From: Bacteroidota bacterium
GTDB lineage: Bacteria > Bacteroidota > Bacteroidia > Bacteroidales > Prolixibacteraceae
Assembly: GCA_030698405.1 (NCBI GenBank)
Contig: JAUYMU010000008.1
Span: 1 to 38,303, forward strand
DNA length: 38,303 bases
Reading direction: 5' to 3'
The notes below the pieces were generated by a model. The model ran no database searches and was not told where the DNA came from. It saw only the letters and a program-made list of their open reading frames with translations. Positions 7,187 to 18,478 of the stretch are shown here, piece after piece. The position numbers and the translations under genes were made by a program. Each line of letters opens with the position of its first letter. The stretch's first letter is position 1.

Positions 7187-7221
7187 ATAAAATTTTAAAA
7201 AACTATTAAAACCCATTGATA

Positions 7222-7980
7222 ATGAGAAAAAAGATCGTTGCCGGAAACTGGAAATGTAACACTACCGTTCAGGAAGGTGTTGAACTTGCAAAAGCAGTAA
7301 GTGAATTAGTAGCCAATTCAGGTGTGAAAAATGTAGTTGTAGTTCTTGGAACTCCTTTCACACACATTACCAGCGTTGTAAATGCAGTTGATACTAAACT
7401 TATTGACGTTGCTGCCCAGAACTGTGCTGCAGAAGCAAAAGGCGCCTTTACCGGCGAAGTTTCGGCTGCCATGGTTAAATCAACCGGTGCAACTCATGTA
7501 ATTTTAGGTCACTCTGAACGTCGCGAATATTATGGCGAAACAAGCGAAACGCTGAACAAAAAAGTGGAGCTAGCCCTTGCAAACGGCTTAACTCCAATTT
7601 ATTGCTGCGGCGAAGCGCTTTCAATCCGTGAAGCCAACGAACAAAATGCATACGTTAAAACTCAGCTTGACGAAACCATTTTCAACCTCAGCGCCGAAGA
7701 CTTTTCGAAACTTGCCATTGCTTACGAACCAATTTGGGCCATCGGAACAGGTGTAACTGCTTCTACTGCTCAGGCTCAGGAAATGCTGGCTTACATTCGT
7801 GGTTTGATTGCCGACAAATTCGGAAAAGCGGTTGCTGAAGAAACTTCTATTCTTTACGGTGGTAGCTGCAACGCTAAAAATGCTCCTGAATTGTTTTCAC
7901 AACCAGACATTGATGGTGGATTAATTGGTGGCGCATCGCTAAAAGCCGAAGATTTCCTGGGAATAATTACTGCGTACTAA
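7222..7980 (+). CDS. tpiA: Triosephosphate isomerase
   Basis: The 252-residue enzyme interconverts dihydroxyacetone phosphate and glyceraldehyde 3-phosphate in glycolysis and gluconeogenesis. It starts [13 protein letters not shown] (catalytic N11 and K13). It carries the electrophilic His in [10 protein letters not shown], the catalytic Glu in [11 protein letters not shown] (loop 6 follows), and the phosphate-binding LYGGSCN and GGLIGGASL. Length is normal. The ATG at 7222 is preferred over a TTG two codons upstream because homologues begin at MRK. In many Bacteroidota tpiA is adjacent to prmA; here an island separates them. Confidence 0.97.
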
Positions 7981-7992
7981 TTTAAGGCAGAA

Positions 7993-8180
7993 GCAACGTT
8001 CCCTGAGCGCGAAGCAGTCGAAGGGAAGACCGAAGCAGCGCTCCCTGAGCGTTGAACTGAGCTTTAGTCGAAGTTCGCGAAGCAGTCGAAGGGCGTTCCC
8101 TGAGTTGCGTGCTCCCTGAGCAGCGTAGCGTGTCGAAGGGAGTATCGAAGGGCGCTCCCTGAGCTTGTCGAAGGGCAATA
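7993..8180. repeat. Cluster of CCCTGAG...TCGAAGGG palindromic repeats
   Basis: Several copies of the inverted pair CCCTGAGC and GTCGAAGGG are packed together, for example CCCTGAGCTTGTCGAAGGG near 8157-8175 and CCCTGAGCGCGAAGCAGTCG near 8001. This palindromic family is widespread between genes in Bacteroidota. It lies downstream of tpiA, just before the terminator. Confidence 0.8.
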
Positions 8181-8533: not shown

Positions 8534-10666
8534 ATGGCAAAGAAAAACGGAAACGGAACAGAAGAACCATTAGAAAAACAATTGTGGAAAACCGCTGACA
8601 AACTCCGCAAGAACATTGATGCGGCTGAATACAAACACATTGTGTTGGGGTTAATCTTCCTGAAATATATTTCTGATGCTTTTGAAGAATTATATGCAAC
8701 ACTAAAAGCAGACGAAGTAAACGGAGCAGACCCCGAAGACAAAGACGAATACAAAGCAGAAAATGTTTTCTTTGTTCCGATGGATGCCCGATGGACTTAT
8801 TTACAATCGAAAGCAAAACAACCAGAAATTGGGAAATTTGTGGACGATGCCATGGATGCCATTGAAAAAGAGAACGCTTCATTAAAAGGTGTTTTACCCA
8901 AAGTTTTTGCCCGACAAAACCTTGATCCAACAAGTTTGGGCGAACTAATTGACCTTGTAGGAAATATTGCCTTAGGTGATGCAAAAGCAAGAAGTGCCGA
9001 TGTGCTTGGACACGTTTTTGAATATTTCTTGGGTGAATTTGCACTGGCAGAAGGGAAGAAAGGCGGACAGTTCTATACGCCAAGAAGCGTTGTTGAATTA
9101 TTGGTTGAAATGTTGGAGCCATACAAAGGAAGAGTATTTGACCCTTGTTGTGGTTCGGGTGGTATGTTTGTGCATTCTGAAAAGTTTGTAACAGAACACC
9201 AAGGAAAAGTAAACGACATTTCAATTTATGGACAAGAAAGCAACCAAACTACTTGGCGACTGGCTAAAATGAATTTGGCAATTCGCGGCATTGACAGTTC
9301 ACAAGTGAAATGGAACAACGAAGGTTCCCTATTAAACAATGTTCACAAAGATTTAAAAGTAGACTTCATAATCGCAAATCCGCCTTTTAATGATAGTGAC
9401 TGGAGTGGTCAAGTACTAAAGAAGGATGGTCGCTGGCAATTTGGAATTCCGCCAATCTCAAATGCAAATTTCGCTTGGGTCCAACATTTTACATATCATT
9501 TAAGCACAAATGGAGTAGCTGCTTTTGTTCTTGCGGACACTTCTCTTTCAACAGTTTCATCTGATGAAGCAAATATTAGAAAAGGGCTAGTTAATTCAAA
9601 TCTTGTTGATTGTATTATTTCTTTACCTTCCCACCTTTTCTCAAATACTCAAATTGCAGCTTGTATATGGTTAATATCAAGAAAAAGATCTAATACTAAA
9701 TTGAGAGGTGAAAAAGATGTCTTATTCATTGATGCAAGTAGAAAAGGAAAATTGATTAACCGAAAAAATAGAATTTTAAGAGACTCAGAAATAAGGACTA
9801 TTTCCGATACATATCACAACTGGAAAGGAATGGATAATACAATCTATACTGATACCCCAGGGTTTTGTAAAAGTGTCAATATTAGTATAATTGAGGACAA
9901 TAATTTTGTTTTATCACCAAATAGATATATTGAACCTGCCGAACAAAAAATTGAATCAAATATTGAGATTGCAAATGAGGATATTGAAAGTGAATTGATT
10001 CGATTAACGGATAATATTAGCGAAATAAGTAGCGAGCTATTAAGCAATATAAGCGTAGGAGAAGAATTAAAAGTTGGTGCGATACGAAAATTAAATGTTC
10101 TATCTTCTGAATTGAATGGTTATACAACTGAATTGTATAAAGGAATAATAAAAAAGTATTTCTTGGATTATAATATAGAAAATTCAGAGATCAATACGCC
10201 ACCAAAGAATTGGATAGAAACTACTTTTGGAGAACTCTTTAAAGAACGAAATATTAAAGTTAAACAACTAGGGTTCTGTCCCCCGGTTTATAGCTTAACG
10301 AACAATGGCATTCAAAATAGAGAAGGAAATTTCAGTAAAGTTCTGTCTAAGAGTAACGATAATTACAAGGTTGCATTTGAAGGCGATATGGTATTTGGCC
10401 TTAGTAGAGAAATACCGAATCTTGATGTATTTAATGTAAAACAAGGTGCATTTAGTGGAGCATATCACATTTATTCCCCATATGATATTAGGCTTGGACT
10501 TCTCATCGGAGCAGTTATGAGACTCAAGTTAATGGAGCAGACGGATATTCTTAAAGGAGGAGCTAGAGAAGGCAGAGGATTAGATAAGCATAAATTATTA
10601 AGCAAAAAGTTTATAGTTCCTACAATAGGCGAACTCGACAAATATTGGGGAATCATTAATGGCTAA
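8534..10666 (+). CDS. hsdM: Type I restriction-modification HsdM methyltransferase fused to a single HsdS-type target-recognition domain
   Basis: The 710-residue N6-adenine methyltransferase has an HsdM N-terminal helical domain (about residues 10-150, DKLRKNIDAAEYKHIVLGLIF). The SAM-binding motif DPCCGSGG starts at D203 and the catalytic NPPF is N282-F285. Residues about 460-550 are Glu/Ile/Leu-rich and look coiled-coil. From about residue 555 (KNWIETTFGELFKERN) to the C-terminus (KKFIVPTIGELDKYWG) the sequence looks like one HsdS target-recognition domain. No separate hsdS lies in the locus, so specificity must come from this fused half-subunit, probably through dimerisation (inferred). Base composition shifts inside the gene: 25/60 G+C at 9001-9060, but 19/60 at 9841-9900 and 17/60 at 9961-10020. 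This suggests that the specificity-bearing 3' part was exchanged. Confidence 0.88.
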   Translation: MAKKNGNGTEEPLEKQLWKTADKLRKNIDAAEYKHIVLGLIFLKYISDAFEELYATLKADEVNGADPEDKDEYKAENVFFVPMDARWTYLQSKAKQPEIGKFVDDAMDAIEKENASLKGVLPKVFARQNLDPTSLGELIDLVGNIALGDAKARSADVLGHVFEYFLGEFALAEGKKGGQFYTPRSVVELLVEMLEPYKGRVFDPCCGSGGMFVHSEKFVTEHQGKVNDISIYGQESNQTTWRLAKMNLAIRGIDSSQVKWNNEGSLLNNVHKDLKVDFIIANPPFNDSDWSGQVLKKDGRWQFGIPPISNANFAWVQHFTYHLSTNGVAAFVLADTSLSTVSSDEANIRKGLVNSNLVDCIISLPSHLFSNTQIAACIWLISRKRSNTKLRGEKDVLFIDASRKGKLINRKNRILRDSEIRTISDTYHNWKGMDNTIYTDTPGFCKSVNISIIEDNNFVLSPNRYIEPAEQKIESNIEIANEDIESELIRLTDNISEISSELLSNISVGEELKVGAIRKLNVLSSELNGYTTELYKGIIKKYFLDYNIENSEINTPPKNWIETTFGELFKERNIKVKQLGFCPPVYSLTNNGIQNREGNFSKVLSKSNDNYKVAFEGDMVFGLSREIPNLDVFNVKQGAFSGAYHIYSPYDIRLGLLIGAVMRLKLMEQTDILKGGAREGRGLDKHKLLSKKFIVPTIGELDKYWGIING

Positions 10667-10681
10667 AATGATAATAGTGGA

Positions 10682-10714
10682 ATGACAAGAATTACAGAAA
10701 ATTTTATCTTATGA
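10682..10714 (+). pseudogene. Relic of the hsdR start codon region (11-codon ORF including stop)
   Basis: ATGACAAGAATTACAGAAAA at 10682-10701 matches the real hsdR start at 12274-12293 in 19 of 20 bases. It encodes MTRITENFIL and stops at TGA 10712-10714, overlapping the next gene's ATG (TTATGA). It lies 15 bp after the hsdM stop, where hsdR would be expected to begin in an uninterrupted hsdM-hsdR operon. It reads as the upstream copy of a duplication formed when the accessory gene entered. Confidence 0.7.
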
Positions 10715-12171
10715 ATAGAGAAGATTTTATTAAAGGTGAAAAGTATACTCGTGAGCAATACATGGAGCTTTCAATTTTGGAAATGTTGGAATCAAAGGGT
10801 GAGCATGCAGATAAAGCTGACCCAAAAGTAGGTGCTGTTTTGGTTGACAAAGATGGAGCTTACTTTGATAAAGCCCATCGAGGAGAATTGCGCATTGGAG
10901 ACCACGGAGAATTTACCATATTAGAAAGAAAGCATCTGGGAGAAGACCTGTCGGGCTTCACCTTATATTCAACTCTTGAACCCTGTGTAAAAAGGAATTT
11001 ACCAAAAAGGGGGTGCTACAAACGCTGCATTAATGCTCGCTTAGGTAAAGTATTTATAGGTCACTATGACCCAGACCCAACCGTTGCCTCTAATGGGTAC
11101 AAACTTTTAAAGAAAGCTGGTATTCAGGTAGAATTCTACGACAAGAAATACGAAGAGATTATAGCTGAAGCAAATGAACAGTTCTTTAAAGACGCCGCTA
11201 AGCGCGCAGAGGAAGAAAAAACGAAAGAAATCCAATCAGCTATTGACCCAATCGAGAACGAATTGATTGAATTTCAATTACAAGACCTATCTGAAGAAGC
11301 ACAAGGAACCATGATTGATAAAATGGGATTGTCCTACAAAATTGGTACAGATGCATGGAAAGGCTATTTAAGCAGAATGAAACTAATCAAAGTAGATGAA
11401 GAAAGTAAAACGGCAAGACCAACAGGACTAGGGTTGTTACTATTAGGACAAAAACCAGAACAACATTTTCCACAAGCAAGAATAAAATTTACGGTTCGCT
11501 CAGGTTTAGATAATCCTAAGATTGAGGATTTTAAAGGTCCATTAGTCCTCCTTCCAGAAAAAATAGAACAATATTTAGGTTTTGTATTCCCCAAGGGCTT
11601 TTCTTCTCGTACTTCTTTTGATAGAACAGAAAAAGTTGAAGCTTCCTACTCTGCTCTTTATGAAGTAATCATGAACGCCATGGTACATAGAGATTATAGC
11701 ATTGCTGGTGGACGAATAATGGTAGATGTTGATGATGAAAAGGTAGTGATATCTAGTCCTGGTGAACCGTTATGCTCCCTTGAACAATTGAATAGCTTCA
11801 CCGCACCTTCGTTCAGTCGAAATGCCAAAATTGCCCATATCTTCTTTGAAATGGGATTGGTTGAGGAAAGAGGTTTTGGTATGGAAGAGCTTGGAAAGGT
11901 GGAAGGCTTCGGTTTGCCAAAACCAAAATTTACCATGGAAAACAGCACTCTAAAAGTAACTCTTTTCAGGGTTGTGAATCCTGCAAAGCAAGTTGTAAAA
12001 ACTGAAGATTTACCGGGTATTGATATTTTGCGAAAACAAAAATCGTTGACTACAAAGCAATATGAGGACATTTCAGGATTGAAAGAACGACAAGCTAGAA
12101 ACCATTTAACCGCTTTAGTTGATAATGGCTATGCTAAAAAAGAGGGTACAAAATATGTTTGGATTGAATAA
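10711..12171 (+). CDS. Deaminase-like / GHKL ATPase (RecG-related HATPase_c_4) / winged-helix fusion inside the RM operon; putative defence protein
   Basis: The 486-residue three-part protein begins (residues about 10-150) like a CMP/dCMP-RibD type zinc deaminase: H65-G-E67 in DHGEFTILE, then EPC (C92) and a second Cys at C102 (or C106) in RGCYKRC. The usual H-A-E is H-G-E here. Residues about 205-410 resemble the ATP-binding region of Schlafen/RecG-related regulators (HATPase_c_4): GLLLLGQKPEQHFPQARIKF, E318VIMNAMVHRDYS with N322, SPGEPL at 349, SRNAKIAHIF and EERGFGMEEL. Residues about 430-486 form a winged helix. In related proteins an AlbA_2 domain usually precedes this ATPase; here a deaminase takes that place. 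The gene sits between hsdM and hsdR with its own terminator. Base or nucleotide deamination as a back-up defence is inferred. Confidence 0.75.
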   Translation: MNREDFIKGEKYTREQYMELSILEMLESKGEHADKADPKVGAVLVDKDGAYFDKAHRGELRIGDHGEFTILERKHLGEDLSGFTLYSTLEPCVKRNLPKRGCYKRCINARLGKVFIGHYDPDPTVASNGYKLLKKAGIQVEFYDKKYEEIIAEANEQFFKDAAKRAEEEKTKEIQSAIDPIENELIEFQLQDLSEEAQGTMIDKMGLSYKIGTDAWKGYLSRMKLIKVDEESKTARPTGLGLLLLGQKPEQHFPQARIKFTVRSGLDNPKIEDFKGPLVLLPEKIEQYLGFVFPKGFSSRTSFDRTEKVEASYSALYEVIMNAMVHRDYSIAGGRIMVDVDDEKVVISSPGEPLCSLEQLNSFTAPSFSRNAKIAHIFFEMGLVEERGFGMEELGKVEGFGLPKPKFTMENSTLKVTLFRVVNPAKQVVKTEDLPGIDILRKQKSLTTKQYEDISGLKERQARNHLTALVDNGYAKKEGTKYVWIE

Positions 12172-12176
12172 ATCGG

Positions 12177-12262
12177 CAATTTCGGCAATACCGATTGCCG
12201 TTTTTATTGCCGTTTTTCAATTTGAGGAAAAATCGGCATTGCCGATTACCGATAATAATGCC
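12177..12262. repeat. Cluster of CGGCAAT/ATTGCCG inverted motifs between the accessory gene and hsdR
   Basis: The 102-bp gap is packed with the motif CGGCAAT, its inverse ATTGCCG, or one-base variants, about eight in all. These include the terminator stem and a 17-nt near-perfect palindrome, AATCGGCA-T-TGCCGATT (12231-12247). The density and alternating orientation suggest either stacked RNA hairpins or a protein-binding operator array; neither can be decided by eye. Confidence 0.7.
12183..12205 (+). terminator. Terminator hairpin after the deaminase/ATPase gene
   Basis: CGGCAAT (12183-12189), loop ACCG, ATTGCCG (12194-12200) form a perfect 7-bp stem followed by five Ts. It lies 11 bp after the stop codon at 12169-12171. 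It could end transcription before hsdR, in which case hsdR would need read-through or its own promoter. Confidence 0.6.
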
Positions 12263-12273
12263 GAAAATTTGAA

Positions 12274-15200
12274 ATGACAAGAATTACTGAAAACATAATA
12301 GAAGCGTTTGCTATTGAGTTGCTCGATAAACTCGGTTATGAGTATATCTATGCCCCCGATATAGCATACGATAGCGAAAACCCTGAAAGAGATAGCTATG
12401 CACAAGTTTTGTTGTTGAACAGATTGCAAAATGCCGTTAAAAGAATAAACCAGAGTATTCCATCTGATGCACAGGCAGAAGCTATCAAAGAAATACAGCG
12501 TATTGCTTCACCCGAACTGCTATCCAATAATGAAACATTTCATCGTTTGCTTACGGAGGGTATCCCCGTTTCAAAACGTGTAGATGGAGACGACAGGGGC
12601 GACAGAGTTTGGCTGATTGATTTTAAGAATCCAAAAAACAACGATTTTGTTGTAGCCAACCAATTCACCATTATTGAAAACGGAAATAACAAACGCCCCG
12701 ATGTTATTCTTTTTGTAAATGGGATTCCGCTTGTAGTTATAGAACTGAAAAATGCAGCGGACGAAAACACAACTATCAATTCTGCTTTTAAACAAATAGA
12801 AACCTATAAAGCCATTATTCCAAGCCTGTTTACATACAACGGATTTGTTGTTATTTCTGATGGCTTAGAAGCCAAGTCAGGTTCTATTTCTTCGGGCTTT
12901 AGTCGCTTTATGTCTTGGAAATCGGCAGACGGAAAAGCCGAAGCATCCCATTTGGTAAGTCAGTTAGAAACGTTAATTCAAGGAATGTTGAACAAAGAAA
13001 CCTTGATTGACTTAATCAGACATTTCATTGTTTTTGAAAAATCAAAAAAGGAAGATGCCGAAACAGGCATCACCACCATTTCAACGGTTAAAAAATTAGC
13101 TGCTTATCATCAATACTATGCTGTAAATAGAGCAGTTGAATCAACTTTGAGAGCAACAGGATTTAAATTGGAACTTGAAACGCCTGTAAGCATGGTCATG
13201 GAATCTCCTGAAAGTTATGGAGTGCCCGGAGTAAAAAATCAACCCATTGGCGACAGAAAGGGCGGTGTAGTTTGGCATACGCAAGGAAGCGGGAAATCAT
13301 TGTCAATGGTTTTCTATACTGGTAAAATTGTATTGGCTTTGGACAATCCAACCATTCTTGTCATTACAGACCGAAATGATTTAGACGACCAATTATTTGA
13401 CACCTTCGCGGCTTCCAAGCAACTGCTAAGACAAGAACCAGTTCAGGCAGACGACCGCAACCAATTAAAAGACTTGTTGAAAGTTGCTTCTGGCGGTGTA
13501 GTATTTACCACAATTCAGAAGTTTCAACCTGAAGAAGGCAATATTTACGAAATGCTTTCCGACAGAAAGAACATAGTTGTAATTGCAGACGAGGCACACA
13601 GAACGCAATACGGGTTTAAAGCAAAGACCATTGATGCCAAGGACGGCCACGGAAATGTAGTTGGAAAGAAAATCGTTTATGGTTTTGCAAAATATATGCG
13701 GGACGCTTTGCCTAATGCAACATATTTAGGTTTTACAGGAACACCAATTGAAAACACAGATGTAAACACTCCCGCAGTTTTCGGAAACTATATTGACATC
13801 TACGATATAGCCCAAGCGGTTGAAGATGGCGCTACAGTTCGCATATATTACGAAAGCCGATTGTCTAAAGTCAATTTAAGTGAAGAAGGCAAAGAATTAA
13901 TAAAAGAATTAGATGATGAACTTGAACTGGATGATTTAACCAATACACAAAAGTCTAAGGCAAAACTGACACAATTGGAAGCTTTAGTAGGCAGTAAGAA
14001 ACGAATAAAAAATATTGCACAAGATATTATCACCCACTTTGAGGAAAGACAGTCGGTTTTTGAAGGCAAAGGAATCATAGTGACAATGAGCAGAAGAATT
14101 GCAGCAGACCTATACGCTGCAATAATTGCTATTAAACCGGATTGGCATTCGGACGACTTGAATAAAGGCGTTATTAAAGTAGTAATGACATCTGTATCTT
14201 CAGATGGCCCTAAAATAGCAAAACATCATACGTCAAAATTGCAAAGAAGAGTTCTGTCTGAAAGGATGAAAAATCCTGATGATGAAATGAATTTAGTTAT
14301 TGTTTGTGATATGTGGCTGACTGGTTTTGATGTTCCTTGTTTGCACACTATGTATATTGACAAGCCTATGAAGGGTCACAATTTGATGCAGGCAATTGCA
14401 AGAGTGAACCGGGTTTATAAAGATAAACCGGGCGGTTTAATTGTTGACTATTTGGGTATTGCTTCAGATTTGAAAAATGCGTTAGTTTTTTATTCGAATG
14501 CAGGTGGTAAAGGTGACCCAACCTTATTGCAAGAACAAGCTGTTCAATTGATGATTGAAAAATTGGAAATTGTTTCACAAATGTATCATGGCTTTGCCTA
14601 TGAAACCTATTTTGAAGCAGAAACTTCAAAAAAACTATACATGATTCTTGCAGCAGAAGAATTTATTTTAGGATTGGATGAAGGTAAAAAAAGATACATT
14701 AATGAAGTTACAGCATTGTCTAAGGCGTTTGCAATTGCCATTCCTCACGAAAAAGCGATGGATGTAAAAGACGTAGTTTCATTCTTTCAAGCGGTAAAAG
14801 CAAGATTAGCCAAATTTGATGGCACAGGTTCAGGCAGAACAAACGAAGAAATTGAAACTACAATTAGACAAGTCATTGACAAAGCTTTAGTTTCGGAACA
14901 AGTTATTGATGTTTTTGATGCAGCTGGTATTAAGAAACCAGATATTTCCATTCTGTCGGAGGATTTCTTAATGGAATTAAAAGGTATGGAGCATAAAAAT
15001 ATTGCATTGGAAGTATTAAAAAAACTTTTAAGTGATGAAATAAAATCAAGGTCCAAAAAGTATCTAGTCAGGAGCAAGACTTTAATGGAAATGCTTGAAA
15101 ATTCAATAAAGAAATATCATAACAAAATACTTACAGCAGCAGAAGTCATTGAAGAACTTATACATTTAAGTAAATCCATTGTTGAAATGGATAGCGAAGC

Positions 15201-15498
15201 TAAAGCAATGAATCTGACTGATTTTGAATATGCTTTTTACACTGCCGTTGCAAACAATGATAGTGCAAAAGAATTAATGGGAAAAGACAAGTTAAGAGAA
15301 CTGGCAGTGGTTCTGACAGAAACCATCAGACAAAACGCTTCCATCGATTGGACAATTAAAGAAAGCGTAAAAGCTAAATTGAAAGTTGCAGTAAAAAGAA
15401 TTTTAAGAAAGTACGGTTATCCCCCTGACATGCAAATGTTGGCGACAGAGACCGTTTTAAAACAAGCCGAAATGATTGCAAACGAAATAACGACATAG
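12274..15498 (+). CDS. hsdR: Type I restriction endonuclease subunit R (translocase/nuclease)
   Basis: The 1074-residue HsdR has a nuclease domain of the PD-(D/E)xK type (D143 in RPDVILFVNG, E157-L-K159 in VVIELKN). A superfamily 2 motor follows, with Walker A around K341 (HTQGSGKS), DEAH box D439EAH, GFTGTPIE (motif III) and QAIARVNRVYKDKPGG (motif VI). The C-terminal 300 residues match the helical region that binds the methyltransferase core. All catalytic motifs are intact and the length is normal. The ATG at 12274 is supported by its relic copy at 10682. Together with the HsdM/TRD fusion it would cut DNA lacking the cognate adenine methylation. Confidence 0.93.
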   Translation: MTRITENIIEAFAIELLDKLGYEYIYAPDIAYDSENPERDSYAQVLLLNRLQNAVKRINQSIPSDAQAEAIKEIQRIASPELLSNNETFHRLLTEGIPVSKRVDGDDRGDRVWLIDFKNPKNNDFVVANQFTIIENGNNKRPDVILFVNGIPLVVIELKNAADENTTINSAFKQIETYKAIIPSLFTYNGFVVISDGLEAKSGSISSGFSRFMSWKSADGKAEASHLVSQLETLIQGMLNKETLIDLIRHFIVFEKSKKEDAETGITTISTVKKLAAYHQYYAVNRAVESTLRATGFKLELETPVSMVMESPESYGVPGVKNQPIGDRKGGVVWHTQGSGKSLSMVFYTGKIVLALDNPTILVITDRNDLDDQLFDTFAASKQLLRQEPVQADDRNQLKDLLKVASGGVVFTTIQKFQPEEGNIYEMLSDRKNIVVIADEAHRTQYGFKAKTIDAKDGHGNVVGKKIVYGFAKYMRDALPNATYLGFTGTPIENTDVNTPAVFGNYIDIYDIAQAVEDGATVRIYYESRLSKVNLSEEGKELIKELDDELELDDLTNTQKSKAKLTQLEALVGSKKRIKNIAQDIITHFEERQSVFEGKGIIVTMSRRIAADLYAAIIAIKPDWHSDDLNKGVIKVVMTSVSSDGPKIAKHHTSKLQRRVLSERMKNPDDEMNLVIVCDMWLTGFDVPCLHTMYIDKPMKGHNLMQAIARVNRVYKDKPGGLIVDYLGIASDLKNALVFYSNAGGKGDPTLLQEQAVQLMIEKLEIVSQMYHGFAYETYFEAETSKKLYMILAAEEFILGLDEGKKRYINEVTALSKAFAIAIPHEKAMDVKDVVSFFQAVKARLAKFDGTGSGRTNEEIETTIRQVIDKALVSEQVIDVFDAAGIKKPDISILSEDFLMELKGMEHKNIALEVLKKLLSDEIKSRSKKYLVRSKTLMEMLENSIKKYHNKILTAAEVIEELIHLSKSIVEMDSEAKAMNLTDFEYAFYTAVANNDSAKELMGKDKLRELAVVLTETIRQNASIDWTIKESVKAKLKVAVKRILRKYGYPPDMQMLATETVLKQAEMIANEITT

Positions 15499-16014: not shown

Positions 16015-16455
16015 ATGGATAATTTTGAAGAATATTTACGACAAGGTGAACCCAATAAAGCAGAAAAAGCAAAAGTTTGGAAAATCGCTATCGGATTGCA
16101 ACAAGTTGATGGGTTAACACCTTCTGACTATTTGATAGCAACTGCTAAGCAGAACATTGAAGGCGACATTTCCATTGATGAGGTAAAACAACTAATAGAC
16201 AGTTATTACAAGCAACATCCTGACACTGTAAAAACGCAAAATGACACTGTAAAAATTGAAAATGACACTGATAATGACACTGTATTTTATTTAATAAAGC
16301 AAAATAACCAAATAACAGCAACCGAAATAGGCGAAAGATTAAAGATAAGTTTGAGCACAGTAAAACGGAAAATAAAAGAACTTAAACACAGCGGAAAAAT
16401 AGAACGCATAGGAAGTGATAAATCAGGCCATTGGAAAATAATGAATGATGAGTAA
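16015..16455 (+). CDS. VbhA-like Fic antitoxin with C-terminal winged helix
   Basis: The 146-residue protein has a VbhA-type antitoxin domain (about residues 15-65: [20 protein letters not shown], then [18 protein letters not shown]). A short linker with in-frame repeats of NDTVK/NDT (residues 70-90) follows. The C-terminal winged helix (about residues 95-143) contains [20 protein letters not shown]. At the expected inhibitory S/T-xxx-E-G position it reads LQQVDG, with Asp in place of Glu. The ATG at 16015 is preferred over an upstream TTG. It overlaps the Fic gene by 11 bp, the usual toxin-antitoxin arrangement. The winged helix suggests it also represses the operon (inferred). Confidence 0.78.
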
Positions 16456-17329
16456 TACAAAAATATCCATACGTTTTTTTGACGACCGCGAAGTGCGGGC
16501 CGTTTGGGACGAGCAAAACGCCAGGTGGTGGTTTAGTGTGTTGGATATTGTAGCTTTGCTTACCGACCAGGACGACTACGCCAAAACCCGCAACTATTGG
16601 AAATATCTTAAAGCGAAGTTGAAGAAAGAAAACAGCCAAGTGGTTAGTGCTACTACCCAGTTGAAATTTCTTGCACCGGATGGTAAGAAGCGTTTAGCCG
16701 ATATGTTGGATTACAATGGCATTATTGCCTTGGGCAAAGAATTTCCGGGCAAAAAGGCAAACCGGTTTATTGAATGGTTTACATACAGTGATGAAAGCAT
16801 AGACGGAAAAAGCAAAACAAAAGCGTATGCATTGTTTGAAAGTACTTTTATCAACAGCATAGAAGTTGGTACAACCAAAGGTTTGCAACAATTACACGCT
16901 TATTTGTTTGGCGGATTGTATGATTTTGCGGGACAAATCAGACAAAAAAATATTTCAAAAGGTGGCTTTCATTTTGCCGTATCGCGCTTTTTAGGCGATA
17001 CCTTAAAGCAAATAGAAGCAATGCCCGAAACTACTTTTGACGAAATCGTAAACAAATATGTAGAAATGAACATTGCACACCCTTTTATGGAAGGCAATGG
17101 CAGAAGCGCCCGAATATGGTTGGATTTGATACTGAAAAAACGCCTTAAAAAATGCGTTGATTGGAGTAAAATAAGCAAGCGGGATTACATGAACGCAATG
17201 ATGCTAAGTCCAACTAAAAGTAGCGTTCTGAAAACACTTTTGAAAAATGCACTCACCACCAAAATAAACGACCGCGAAATGTTTTTGAAAGGAATTGACT
17301 ACTCCTATTACTACGAAGAAAATGACTAA
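16445..17329 (+). CDS. Bro-N/Fic domain toxin (predicted AMP-transferase)
   Basis: The 294-residue protein has an N-terminal Bro-N-like domain (about residues 5-105: [20 protein letters not shown], then [12 protein letters not shown]) and a Fic domain (about residues 120-260). The flap is [11 protein letters not shown] and the catalytic loop is [12 protein letters not shown] with H212, complete for the HxFx(D/E)(G/A)NGRxxR signature. Fic enzymes of this class transfer AMP to target proteins; the target is unknown. It lacks its own inhibitory helix and should depend on the antitoxin encoded just upstream, with which it overlaps. ATG 16445 or 16448 could both serve as start. Confidence 0.85.
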
Positions 17330-17644: not shown

Positions 17645-18478
17645 ATGAACTATACACAAATCACCTTTAAGCTAAATCCTGACAATCAGGAAAACCGCGA
17701 AATACTGGTCGCTTTACTTTCTGATCTTTCTTTTGAAAGTTTTGACGAGACCGAAGAACTGGTAATGGGATACATTCCCGGAGAAACTGTTGATCTGGAA
17801 CAGATCGGGGAAATTACCGCTTCCCTACCCTTTTCTGTTCAAACTGAAAATGAAATGATTCCGGATCAGAACTGGAATGAAGTTTGGGAAAAGAACTATT
17901 TCAAACCCTTGCTGATTGGCAATCGCTGTCTGGTTAGGGCGCCGTTTCACACTGAATTTGAGCCAGCCGAATTCGAACTGGTAATTGAACCCAAAATGGC
18001 GTTCGGTACCGGAAACCACGAAACCACCACATTGGTTGCCGAACAAATTCTGAACATGGATCTTTCAGGAAAAACAGTTTTGGACATGGGCTGCGGAACC
18101 GGAATTCTGGGAATGATGGCTTCGCTAAAAGGCGCCAAAAACGTGACAGCCATCGACATCGACACCTGGTCGTTTGAAAGTACGGTTGAAAATGCCCGTC
18201 TGAACAACATTTTCAATCTGGAAGCAAAATTGGGCGATGCCAGTTTACTTGGAGATGAAACTTACGAAATCATTTTTGCCAACATCCATAAAAATGTAAT
18301 CGTCAACGATTTGCCTGTTTATGAAAGTGTATTGCAATCAGGAGGAAAACTATACCTGAGCGGTTTTAACACCCACGACATGCCCGATGTAAAAGCAAAA
18401 GCCGAATCGCTTGGACTTCGGGAAACCGGATTTCAGGAAAAGAATAACTGGGTAGTTTATTCGTTTGAAAAACCCTGA
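17645..18478 (+). CDS. prmA: Ribosomal protein L11 methyltransferase
   Basis: The 277-residue SAM-dependent methyltransferase trimethylates ribosomal protein L11. It has the N-terminal substrate-binding domain (about residues 1-85), the PrmA block PKMAFGTGNHETT, and the Rossmann SAM site VLDMGCGTGILGMMASLKGA with acidic AIDID. The NIHKN motif replaces the NILA/NPPY-type motif near residue 215, as in many Bacteroidota homologues. Length is normal for the Bacteroidota branch. It forms the right flank of the island; tpiA is the left flank. No good promoter box was found, and the start is preceded directly by the TGAAACGTTAAACTT repeat. Confidence 0.93.
   Translation: MNYTQITFKLNPDNQENREILVALLSDLSFESFDETEELVMGYIPGETVDLEQIGEITASLPFSVQTENEMIPDQNWNEVWEKNYFKPLLIGNRCLVRAPFHTEFEPAEFELVIEPKMAFGTGNHETTTLVAEQILNMDLSGKTVLDMGCGTGILGMMASLKGAKNVTAIDIDTWSFESTVENARLNNIFNLEAKLGDASLLGDETYEIIFANIHKNVIVNDLPVYESVLQSGGKLYLSGFNTHDMPDVKAKAESLGLRETGFQEKNNWVVYSFEKP

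Follow-up and report, generated by a model that had tools for sequence, protein, structure and literature searches.

Several described defence systems provide the background for the locus presented here. According to the respective reports, PrrC is embedded in the type I restriction-modification (RM) operon EcoprrI and has been proposed to form a second defence line (PMC2610378, PMC3874165, PMC12707154), TgvAB is a second defence system carried as cargo between hsd genes (PMC11411939), Schlafen RNases joined to a winged helix and a minimal histidine kinase serve as backup effectors in BREX loci (2026 review, PMC12839542), and phage defence by AvcD involves deamination of dCTP and dCMP (PMC10511110). 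There is thus precedent for modular effectors of the Schlafen type, for accessory genes within hsd loci and for nucleotide deaminases in defence. Here we analyse a gene lying between hsdM and hsdR of a type I RM locus in the window, that is, the whole 38,303-nucleotide stretch studied (contig JAUYMU010000008.1 of a Bacteroidota bacterium, family Prolixibacteraceae). It encodes a 486-residue protein combining a RibD-type zinc deaminase, a GHKL-type ATPase and a C-terminal winged helix, and an array of short repeated sites follows it directly. Among the open-licence papers surveyed by title and abstract, none describes a deaminase on this ATPase-winged-helix part, with or without a cognate downstream array. 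The reading that we favour, with middling confidence, is that of a mobile, self-contained defence effector with its cognate site array, settled as cargo in the hsdS–hsdR slot, whose deaminase would be released on phage attack.

At the sequence level, residues 14–117 match Pfam dCMP_cyt_deam_1 (E 4e-9) and residues 333–418 match HATPase_c_4 (E 4e-14), both over the curated cut-off. The AlphaFold2 model of the protein reached a mean pLDDT of 83 and a pTM of 0.50, so that the domains are modelled well and their arrangement is uncertain. Foldseek matched the N-terminal part to RibD/RibG and dCMP deaminases, the kind of fold that an earlier reading of the DNA (the sequence-only reading) had predicted there, and the C-terminal part to 3lmm (DIP2311). 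The zinc motif of the cytidine deaminase superfamily, H-x-E ... P-C ... C, is present together with the fold. The sequence-only reading had also named H65, E67, C92 and C102 as a zinc signature, N322 as part of a GHKL ATP-binding region, and a winged helix. All three stand: the first on Pfam, Foldseek and conservation among relatives, the second on HATPase_c_4 and the invariance of N322, and the third on secondary structure and profile alignment, without a Pfam match. C106, offered as a further zinc ligand, has to be given up, this position being Ile in 61 of 77 relatives.

By sequence, the nearest enzyme of the N-terminal part is RibD (profile E 8e-15), and the RibD/RibG deaminase domain is its best relative in both sequence and fold. 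Unlike RibD, however, the protein has no reductase domain matched by Pfam, and it misses the NCBIfam RibD cut-off (51.6 bits versus 156 needed). The host genome has a RibD of its own, among five deaminase-domain genes, which indicates that the deaminase-ATPase protein is not the riboflavin enzyme.

The sequence-only reading could match the domain combination to no named system, but the C-terminal two thirds prove to be a known module, that of the Schlafen-HATPase-winged helix-turn-helix (wHTH) proteins. Using hhalign, residues 182–485 were aligned through to the end with eleven Schlafen-type (AlbA_2)-HATPase proteins (probability 100, E 2e-47), with nothing aligned upstream; six of these eleven come from the window's own genome and all were classed by eye. 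As in Schlafen-HATPase-wHTH effectors, which also occur in BREX and Hma loci (L115), both HATPase_c_4 and a C-terminal winged helix are present, and we call this common part the chassis. The difference lies at the N terminus, where those effectors have an RNase and the window protein has a deaminase; Pfam detected no SLFN_AlbA_2 RNase domain in the latter. In these alignments, the deaminase occupies the place of the Schlafen domain, a known effector, on a known switch. A larger Schlafen-type set (42 proteins) was classed by a custom profile made from the same eleven proteins, and this Schlafen N-terminal profile also matches a neighbour of one relative (L027), the one that Pfam calls SLFN_AlbA_2. 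A quick tree built from 120 chassis puts all 77 deaminase carriers on one side of a branch (support 91), so that a single fusion event is enough to explain them. The chassis carries further effectors than Schlafen domains: the deaminase in the window and a SIR2 domain in L146.

The family was defined as 77 distinct members, made up of 71 distinct sequences from 75 loci plus six of seven from a draw across the phylum (one was a duplicate); the genome-scan loci are the best 80 of 441 relatives. Three members that end at a contig edge (L080, L089 and L091) are counted, split or shorter copies (L094, L095, L097, L099–L101 and L103–L105) are excluded, and open reading frames (ORFs) come from a simple longest-ORF script, with approximate starts and small genes. 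Among the distinct relatives covering each position, H65 is kept in 75/75, E67 in 76/76 and C92 in 76/76, while C102, E318 and N322 are present in 77/77, as are R95, K99, H326, R327, S349, G351, N371, E385 and G390. Within the best 80 of 441 loci, relatives span many phyla and come mostly from metagenome-assembled genomes. Among 393 genomes of the order, 15 hold a full-length relative (E ≤1e-30), and among 395 genomes of the phylum, 8 do, both figures including the genome of the window; the nearest relative of the window protein is that of L037 (67% identity).

Mobile elements were also searched. None of 107 matching records of the plasmid collection and none of 26 of the phage collection is full-length at 80% coverage, and a scan of viral contigs with the single protein gave no match. 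A scan of viral contigs with the alignment gave 30 loci, 29 of them matching the chassis part and one, L117 (4282–5316, plus strand), with the same deaminase signature on a different, unrelated N-terminal part. Another architecture is found at L259 (5343–6821, minus strand), where a guanylate-kinase-like domain is fused to a related deaminase (34% identity) and the PADLOC model named dCTPase is matched (E 1e-14). Some loci suggest movement or disruption of relatives. At L101 (8270–11038) two ORFs resembling an IS3-type element, named by eye, split a relative between deaminase and chassis; at L065 (9784–12634) a relative has a tRNA gene on one side and a phage-type integrase gene on the other, which gives it the look of a passenger on an integrating element; and at L098 (7409–8920, plus strand) a relative plus its array lies within a mur/mraY cell-wall gene cluster, which indicates that the gene inserts into core operons too.

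The most unusual feature of the locus, which the sequence-only reading did not mention, is the array behind the gene. In the window, eight CGGCAAT-type heptamers fall within 101 bp, compared with no more than three per 101 bp elsewhere in the window. Across the family, at least four copies of one 7-mer per 180 bp were found downstream of 53/76 genes versus upstream of 1/75. The same count gave 15/482 for other ORFs of the same loci, 4/38 for Schlafen-type chassis genes, 1/12 for RibD genes and 0/380 for shuffles. Each array unit consists of two direct copies and one inverted copy. Strict units, those within 400 nt of the gene whose direct 7-mers are separated by exactly 5 nt, lie downstream of 53/77 members, upstream of 3/77, downstream of 10/508 other ORFs and behind 3/38 Schlafen-type genes. 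Of the 106 units with 4–5 nt spacing, the 83 that have an odd loop and a 5-nt spacer yield, when placed on a common dyad, the commonest form of the unit, ATCNSGMCA-N3-ATCNSGMCA-N3-TGKCSNGAT. Successive units are 61–63 bp apart in 28 of 45 intervals (62 or 63 bp in 25), about six turns of DNA.

The array follows the gene rather than its surroundings. Units with 4–5 nt spacing are present in 31 of 36 RM- or Argonaute-linked members and in 31 of 41 others, so that the array goes with the gene, not with the RM locus. No unit is found downstream of L259, and L117 has two loose units with other spacings; a deaminase of this kind is therefore not always accompanied by the array. The paired motif occurs at four places in the window's genome, two of which lie in the window array, and this array departs from the consensus in some spacings and letters, its general plan being kept. 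Within single arrays of L034 and L027, units of differing letters occur, concordant inside each unit. In viral contigs, at least 120 stretches carry the consensus unit; among the 80 listed (L304–L383) the first match lies between ORFs (≥70 aa) in 64 and inside one in 16, that is, the sites of array geometry are mostly intergenic, and four of the listed contigs have a symmetrically doubled site. The adjacent ORFs of those 80 sites, one on each side, gave no winged-helix, chassis, deaminase, Schlafen or Fic match at E 1e-3.

Array and winged helix vary together. In 1,891 pairs of 62 members, the similarity of the motif correlated with that of the winged helix (Spearman 0.40) more than with that of the chassis (0.22) or the deaminase (0.21). 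The partial correlation was 0.35 for the winged helix given the chassis versus 0.06 for the chassis given the winged helix, and in 300 permutations neither the plain nor the partial coefficient observed for the winged helix was ever equalled. The 23 pairs with winged helices ≥60% and chassis <50% identical have on average 7.2 of nine motif letters in common, compared with 4.7 in the 150 pairs with winged helices <40% and chassis ≥50% identical and 4.8 in all pairs. In L034 and L182 the winged helices are 88% and the chassis 33% identical, and all nine motif letters are equal; other swap pairs match poorly (L070/L088, 3/9 letters). On this comparison, the array and the DNA-binding domain of the gene ahead of it appear to move together.

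Defence genes recur around the family. For 35/77 relatives, the 5 kb around the gene include a marker of a type I, III, IIG, Hma, GmrSD, LlaJI or Argonaute system, versus 0/12 RibD control loci drawn from the same genomes (p 0.0014). The marker profiles were seeded from neighbours of the deaminase family, which favours the family over the control, and the count was therefore repeated without the seed loci (20/62 versus 0/12, p 0.016). Among loci with at least 5 kb on either side, 19/40 are linked. Neighbours named by domain searches comprise Hma, Argonaute, type III Res and Mod, IIG, ISP, GmrSD and type I genes. On a quick family tree, in which the linkage total is 36 rather than 35 after an hsdS was added by hand at L075, at least 23 changes are needed for RM/Argonaute linkage (11 for type I linkage), which indicates that recruitment or loss happened repeatedly.

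Type I linkage concerns 19/77 members, with weak calls retained at L093 (HsdR label, 108-aa ORF), L187 (282-aa HsdR fragment) and L035 (HsdR 3 kb off, with a peptidase between). In ten of these 19, the window included, the gene immediately precedes hsdR, without an intervening ORF of ≥140 aa; the slot ahead of hsdR, which the sequence-only reading had compared with that of prrC, is thus a recurrent one, and the position between hsdM and hsdR is confirmed by domain matches of both flanks. That reading had further tied the gene to RM as a second-line defence. The link with defence holds in the comparison above; membership of the RM complex is not supported, 42/77 members (L037 among them) being unmarked. 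Cluster 45 (1,038 aa, L073 and L075) was considered as a further hsdR and set aside, having hsdR-like size only, without a Pfam match.

The hsd loci themselves take up varied cargo. Two Chlorobium-type loci, with HsdM 96%, deaminase 96% and HsdR 93% identical, are not alike in what separates hsdS from the deaminase: one has Lamassu there, the other SIR2 together with a short Argonaute. A third such locus has a PrrC/RloC-like gene. The Chlorobium-type hsd loci L183, L185, L186 and L187 act as carriers: HsdM is >80% identical throughout, and the stretch after hsdS and before the deaminase holds one of these three cargoes or nothing large.

In the window, insertion has probably left a trace. The start of hsdR is duplicated around the deaminase gene as a 24-nt repeat whose score of 38 exceeds those of 200 shuffles (no more than 32), and the gene is therefore probably inserted cargo. 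Judging from its sequence, the short leader MTRITENFIL is a probable remnant of an hsdR start. A duplication of the next gene's start was sought in 15 other loci, 13 of which were testable and two of which gave no test. L068 beat all 200 shuffles, though its repeat lies further off; the score was reached by 1 shuffle of 200 for L183, 11 for L090, 29 for L185 and at least 49 for each of the other nine, which makes the scar special to the window. On a larger scale, tpiA and prmA are 11–331 bp apart in 7/18 other same-family genomes where both were found and 9.7 kb apart in the window, so that everything between them was probably inserted as an island.

Taken together, these observations would fit the favoured reading as follows. 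The RibD-type deaminase, its catalytic residues intact, would be the effector, and the GHKL ATPase and winged helix the switch, on the same chassis that carries Schlafen RNases. The winged helix would bind the array directly behind the gene, which would make a single unit of the two. Without an attack the protein would be kept inactive, probably in an ATP-controlled assembly on DNA; phage could upset this state by damaging host DNA, by causing the array to be lost, or by inhibiting or occupying the restriction enzyme. The freed deaminase would then act on a cytidine-type nucleotide, phage replication would be starved, and the host presumably protected. In restriction loci the gene would serve as a recruited second line.

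Several findings weigh against this reading. At 1 kb without the seed loci, linkage falls to 14/62 versus 0/12 (p 0.06); 42/77 members have no RM or Argonaute marker within 5 kb, and some unlinked members adjoin housekeeping genes such as polA, folD and mraY. A strict-spacing unit within 400 nt is lacking in 24/77 members, and the window array has canonical spacing on one strand only (12 nt, versus 9 on the other). Since the array begins at the 3′ end of the gene, joint transfer of one DNA piece may add to the covariation of motif and winged helix, which could be partly linkage. On the biochemical side, the protein matches none of the PADLOC deaminase models, and the substrate of RibD is a riboflavin precursor, not dCTP.

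Among the alternatives, the one that survives best is that the deaminase targets nucleic acid (tRNA, mRNA or DNA), much as the Schlafen domain in whose place it stands cuts tRNA; we regard this as possible, although doubtful. TadA tRNA deaminases are among the profile matches of the N-terminal part (2b3j, E 1.4e-10), and the basic residues R57, R61, R95 and K99 near the zinc motif are almost invariant among relatives, but RibD outscores TadA, and another architecture of the same deaminase bears a nucleotide-kinase-like domain. By analogy, nucleotides are slightly favoured over nucleic acid as substrate because of L259, with its kinase-like domain and its match to the dCTPase model, which we take to denote dCTP-deaminase defence, and because AvcD deaminates dCTP and dCMP; depletion of dCTP would be plausible. 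In the dCTP deaminase/AvcD architecture the deaminase follows an N-terminal P-loop kinase-like domain. The window protein resembles these enzymes as a deaminase-superfamily candidate effector, which L259 brings closer to them, and differs in having no kinase domain, no match to a PADLOC deaminase model and a RibD-like zinc motif.

A strict PrrC-type guardian of RM, silenced by the HsdM/HsdR complex and freed when a phage inhibitor blocks restriction, is unlikely. The slot is of the same kind as that of prrC, and a PrrC/RloC-like AAA_13 gene shares the locus with relatives in L073 (type I) and L055 (GmrSD), the former placing both kinds of gene in one type I locus. However, the partner systems vary in kind (I, III, IIG, Hma, GmrSD and Argonaute), type I linkage is confined to the 19 members given above, and the relatives closest to the window on the tree (L037–L040 and L181) are not in RM loci; with more than half of the family lacking an RM partner nearby, PrrC-like coupling would be possible in places and not a general rule. 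What the window gene has in common with PrrC/RloC is its place as an accessory within a type I RM operon; the protein itself is unrelated, without an AAA_13 or PrrC match in Pfam or PADLOC. The resemblance to TgvAB is likewise one of placement as cargo among type I hsd genes, TgvAB being a GmrSD-related modification-dependent restriction system.

A bolder form of the favoured reading would have the protein leashed to its own gene on the cognate array, reading the integrity or copy number of the array, so that destruction or titration of the array in infection would free the ATPase and fire the deaminase. Winged helix and sites would then be exchanged as a specificity cassette, a sequence-coded alarm for the integrity of the host genome that any restriction or Argonaute locus could adopt. 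Taken jointly, these steps are improbable.

Less likely again is a deaminase inhibited by RNA from the downstream repeats, in the manner of a toxin-antitoxin pair. AvcID is a deaminase inhibited by a noncoding RNA (AvcI; PMC10511110), and the array does start near the stop codon, the window array region folds with a z of −2.9 and each unit can form a hairpin. Yet the differences between second and inverted copies (24 G-U compatible, 21 other transitions and 54 transversions) have no G-U bias, so that RNA pairing is not supported as the explanation of the array; the prevailing 62 or 63 bp intervals, about six DNA turns, also speak against it, and Rfam gave for five array loci a single match, a tRNA outside the array. 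With regard to type III toxin-antitoxin systems, in which a repeat RNA binds and inhibits the protein, repeats are present here, downstream of the gene, with differences that lack this bias. An ordinary transcription regulator whose deaminase-like domain merely senses a ligand is very unlikely: the annotations of chassis relatives read ATP-binding, RNA-binding or helix-turn-helix protein and operator-like sites adjoin the gene, but even members from distant phyla retain every zinc and catalytic residue, and the sites lie downstream, hardly upstream, with genes behind them that vary by locus.

In the favoured reading, array and winged helix would offer a sequence-defined handle on how chassis effectors may be kept off. 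Because relatives occur in many phyla and in no fewer than six kinds of defence locus, a single assay could account for an accessory gene that is widespread. Were the array indeed the sensor, it would represent a new way to distinguish infection from health.

Features of the locus in the window (positions in nucleotides)
Feature	Position	Strand	Basis or remark
Deaminase-GHKL ATPase-winged helix gene	10711..12171	+	486 aa; Pfam, AlphaFold2, Foldseek, residue conservation
RibD-type zinc deaminase domain (H65, E67, C92, C102)	10711..11205	+	Pfam, sequence and fold matches, conservation
GHKL-type ATPase domain (E318, N322, H326-R327, S349-P-G, R370-N371, E385, G390)	11638..11964	+	Pfam, conservation
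Chassis common with Schlafen-HATPase-wHTH proteins (residues 182-486)	11254..12168	+	hhalign
C-terminal winged helix, apparently swapped between relatives	12010..12168	+	Secondary structure, profile alignment, motif/winged-helix comparison
Array of CGGCAAT-type sites, both orientations, 8 copies including variants	12174..12263		Between gene and hsdR
tpiA, left flank of putative inserted island	7216..7980	+	Pfam TIM E 7e-90
hsdM, apparently fused to half hsdS	8534..10666	+	N6_Mtase E 2e-105, HsdM_N; one target-recognition-like domain at about residues 540-710
Left copy of 24-nt direct repeat	10678..10701	+	22/24 identical; duplicated hsdR start
10-codon leader MTRITENFIL-stop	10682..10714	+	Stop overlaps start of deaminase gene; HsdR of several relatives begins MTRITEN or similar
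Right copy of 24-nt repeat	12270..12293	+	Start of hsdR gene
hsdR	12274..15498	+	HSDR_N, SWI2_SNF2, T1RH-like_C; TIGR00348
VbhA-like antitoxin with helix-turn-helix	16009..16455	+	Pfam HTH_11 above, VbhA below cut-off; PDC-S72
Fic adenylyltransferase	16445..17329	+	NF046029 above cut-off
prmA, right flank of putative inserted island	17645..18478	+	Pfam; neighbour survey in same-family genomes

The specificity gene of the operon deserves comment. HsdM, with 710 aa, is full length (residues 1–512 aligned with a 515-aa HsdM) plus about 190 extra residues. Its last 211 residues matched five plasmid records (25–29% identity), all annotated there as 'restriction endonuclease subunit S'. Pfam Methylase_S found no match in this C-terminal part, a PDB sequence search gave nothing up to E 1, and a structure predicted without alignment (pLDDT 35) was not used. 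From the plasmid matches, hsdS is not simply missing; half of it appears to be fused in frame to the window hsdM. Unfused hsdM genes of 506–515 aa occur in six RM relatives whose HsdR is 70–84% identical.

Close HsdR relatives were surveyed in 15 of 23 other genomes, with HsdR 70–84% identical in 13. In the seven of these 13 stretches that show hsdM, no relative of the deaminase lies between hsdM and hsdR; at least two other ORFs do, one presumably hsdS. Occupants of the slot in other genomes include an OLD-type gene (L292) and DUF1016-type genes (L294–L296).

The remaining observations concern the edges of the island. Short direct repeats (TCGAAGGG, TCCCTGAG) are clustered at its left edge (window 7984–8175). 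On the other side of hsdR lies the Fic gene, a copy of which (77% identical) is found in L032, 399 bp downstream of a deaminase relative. A Fic-type match within 5 kb occurs in 8/77 deaminase loci versus 0/12 RibD controls.

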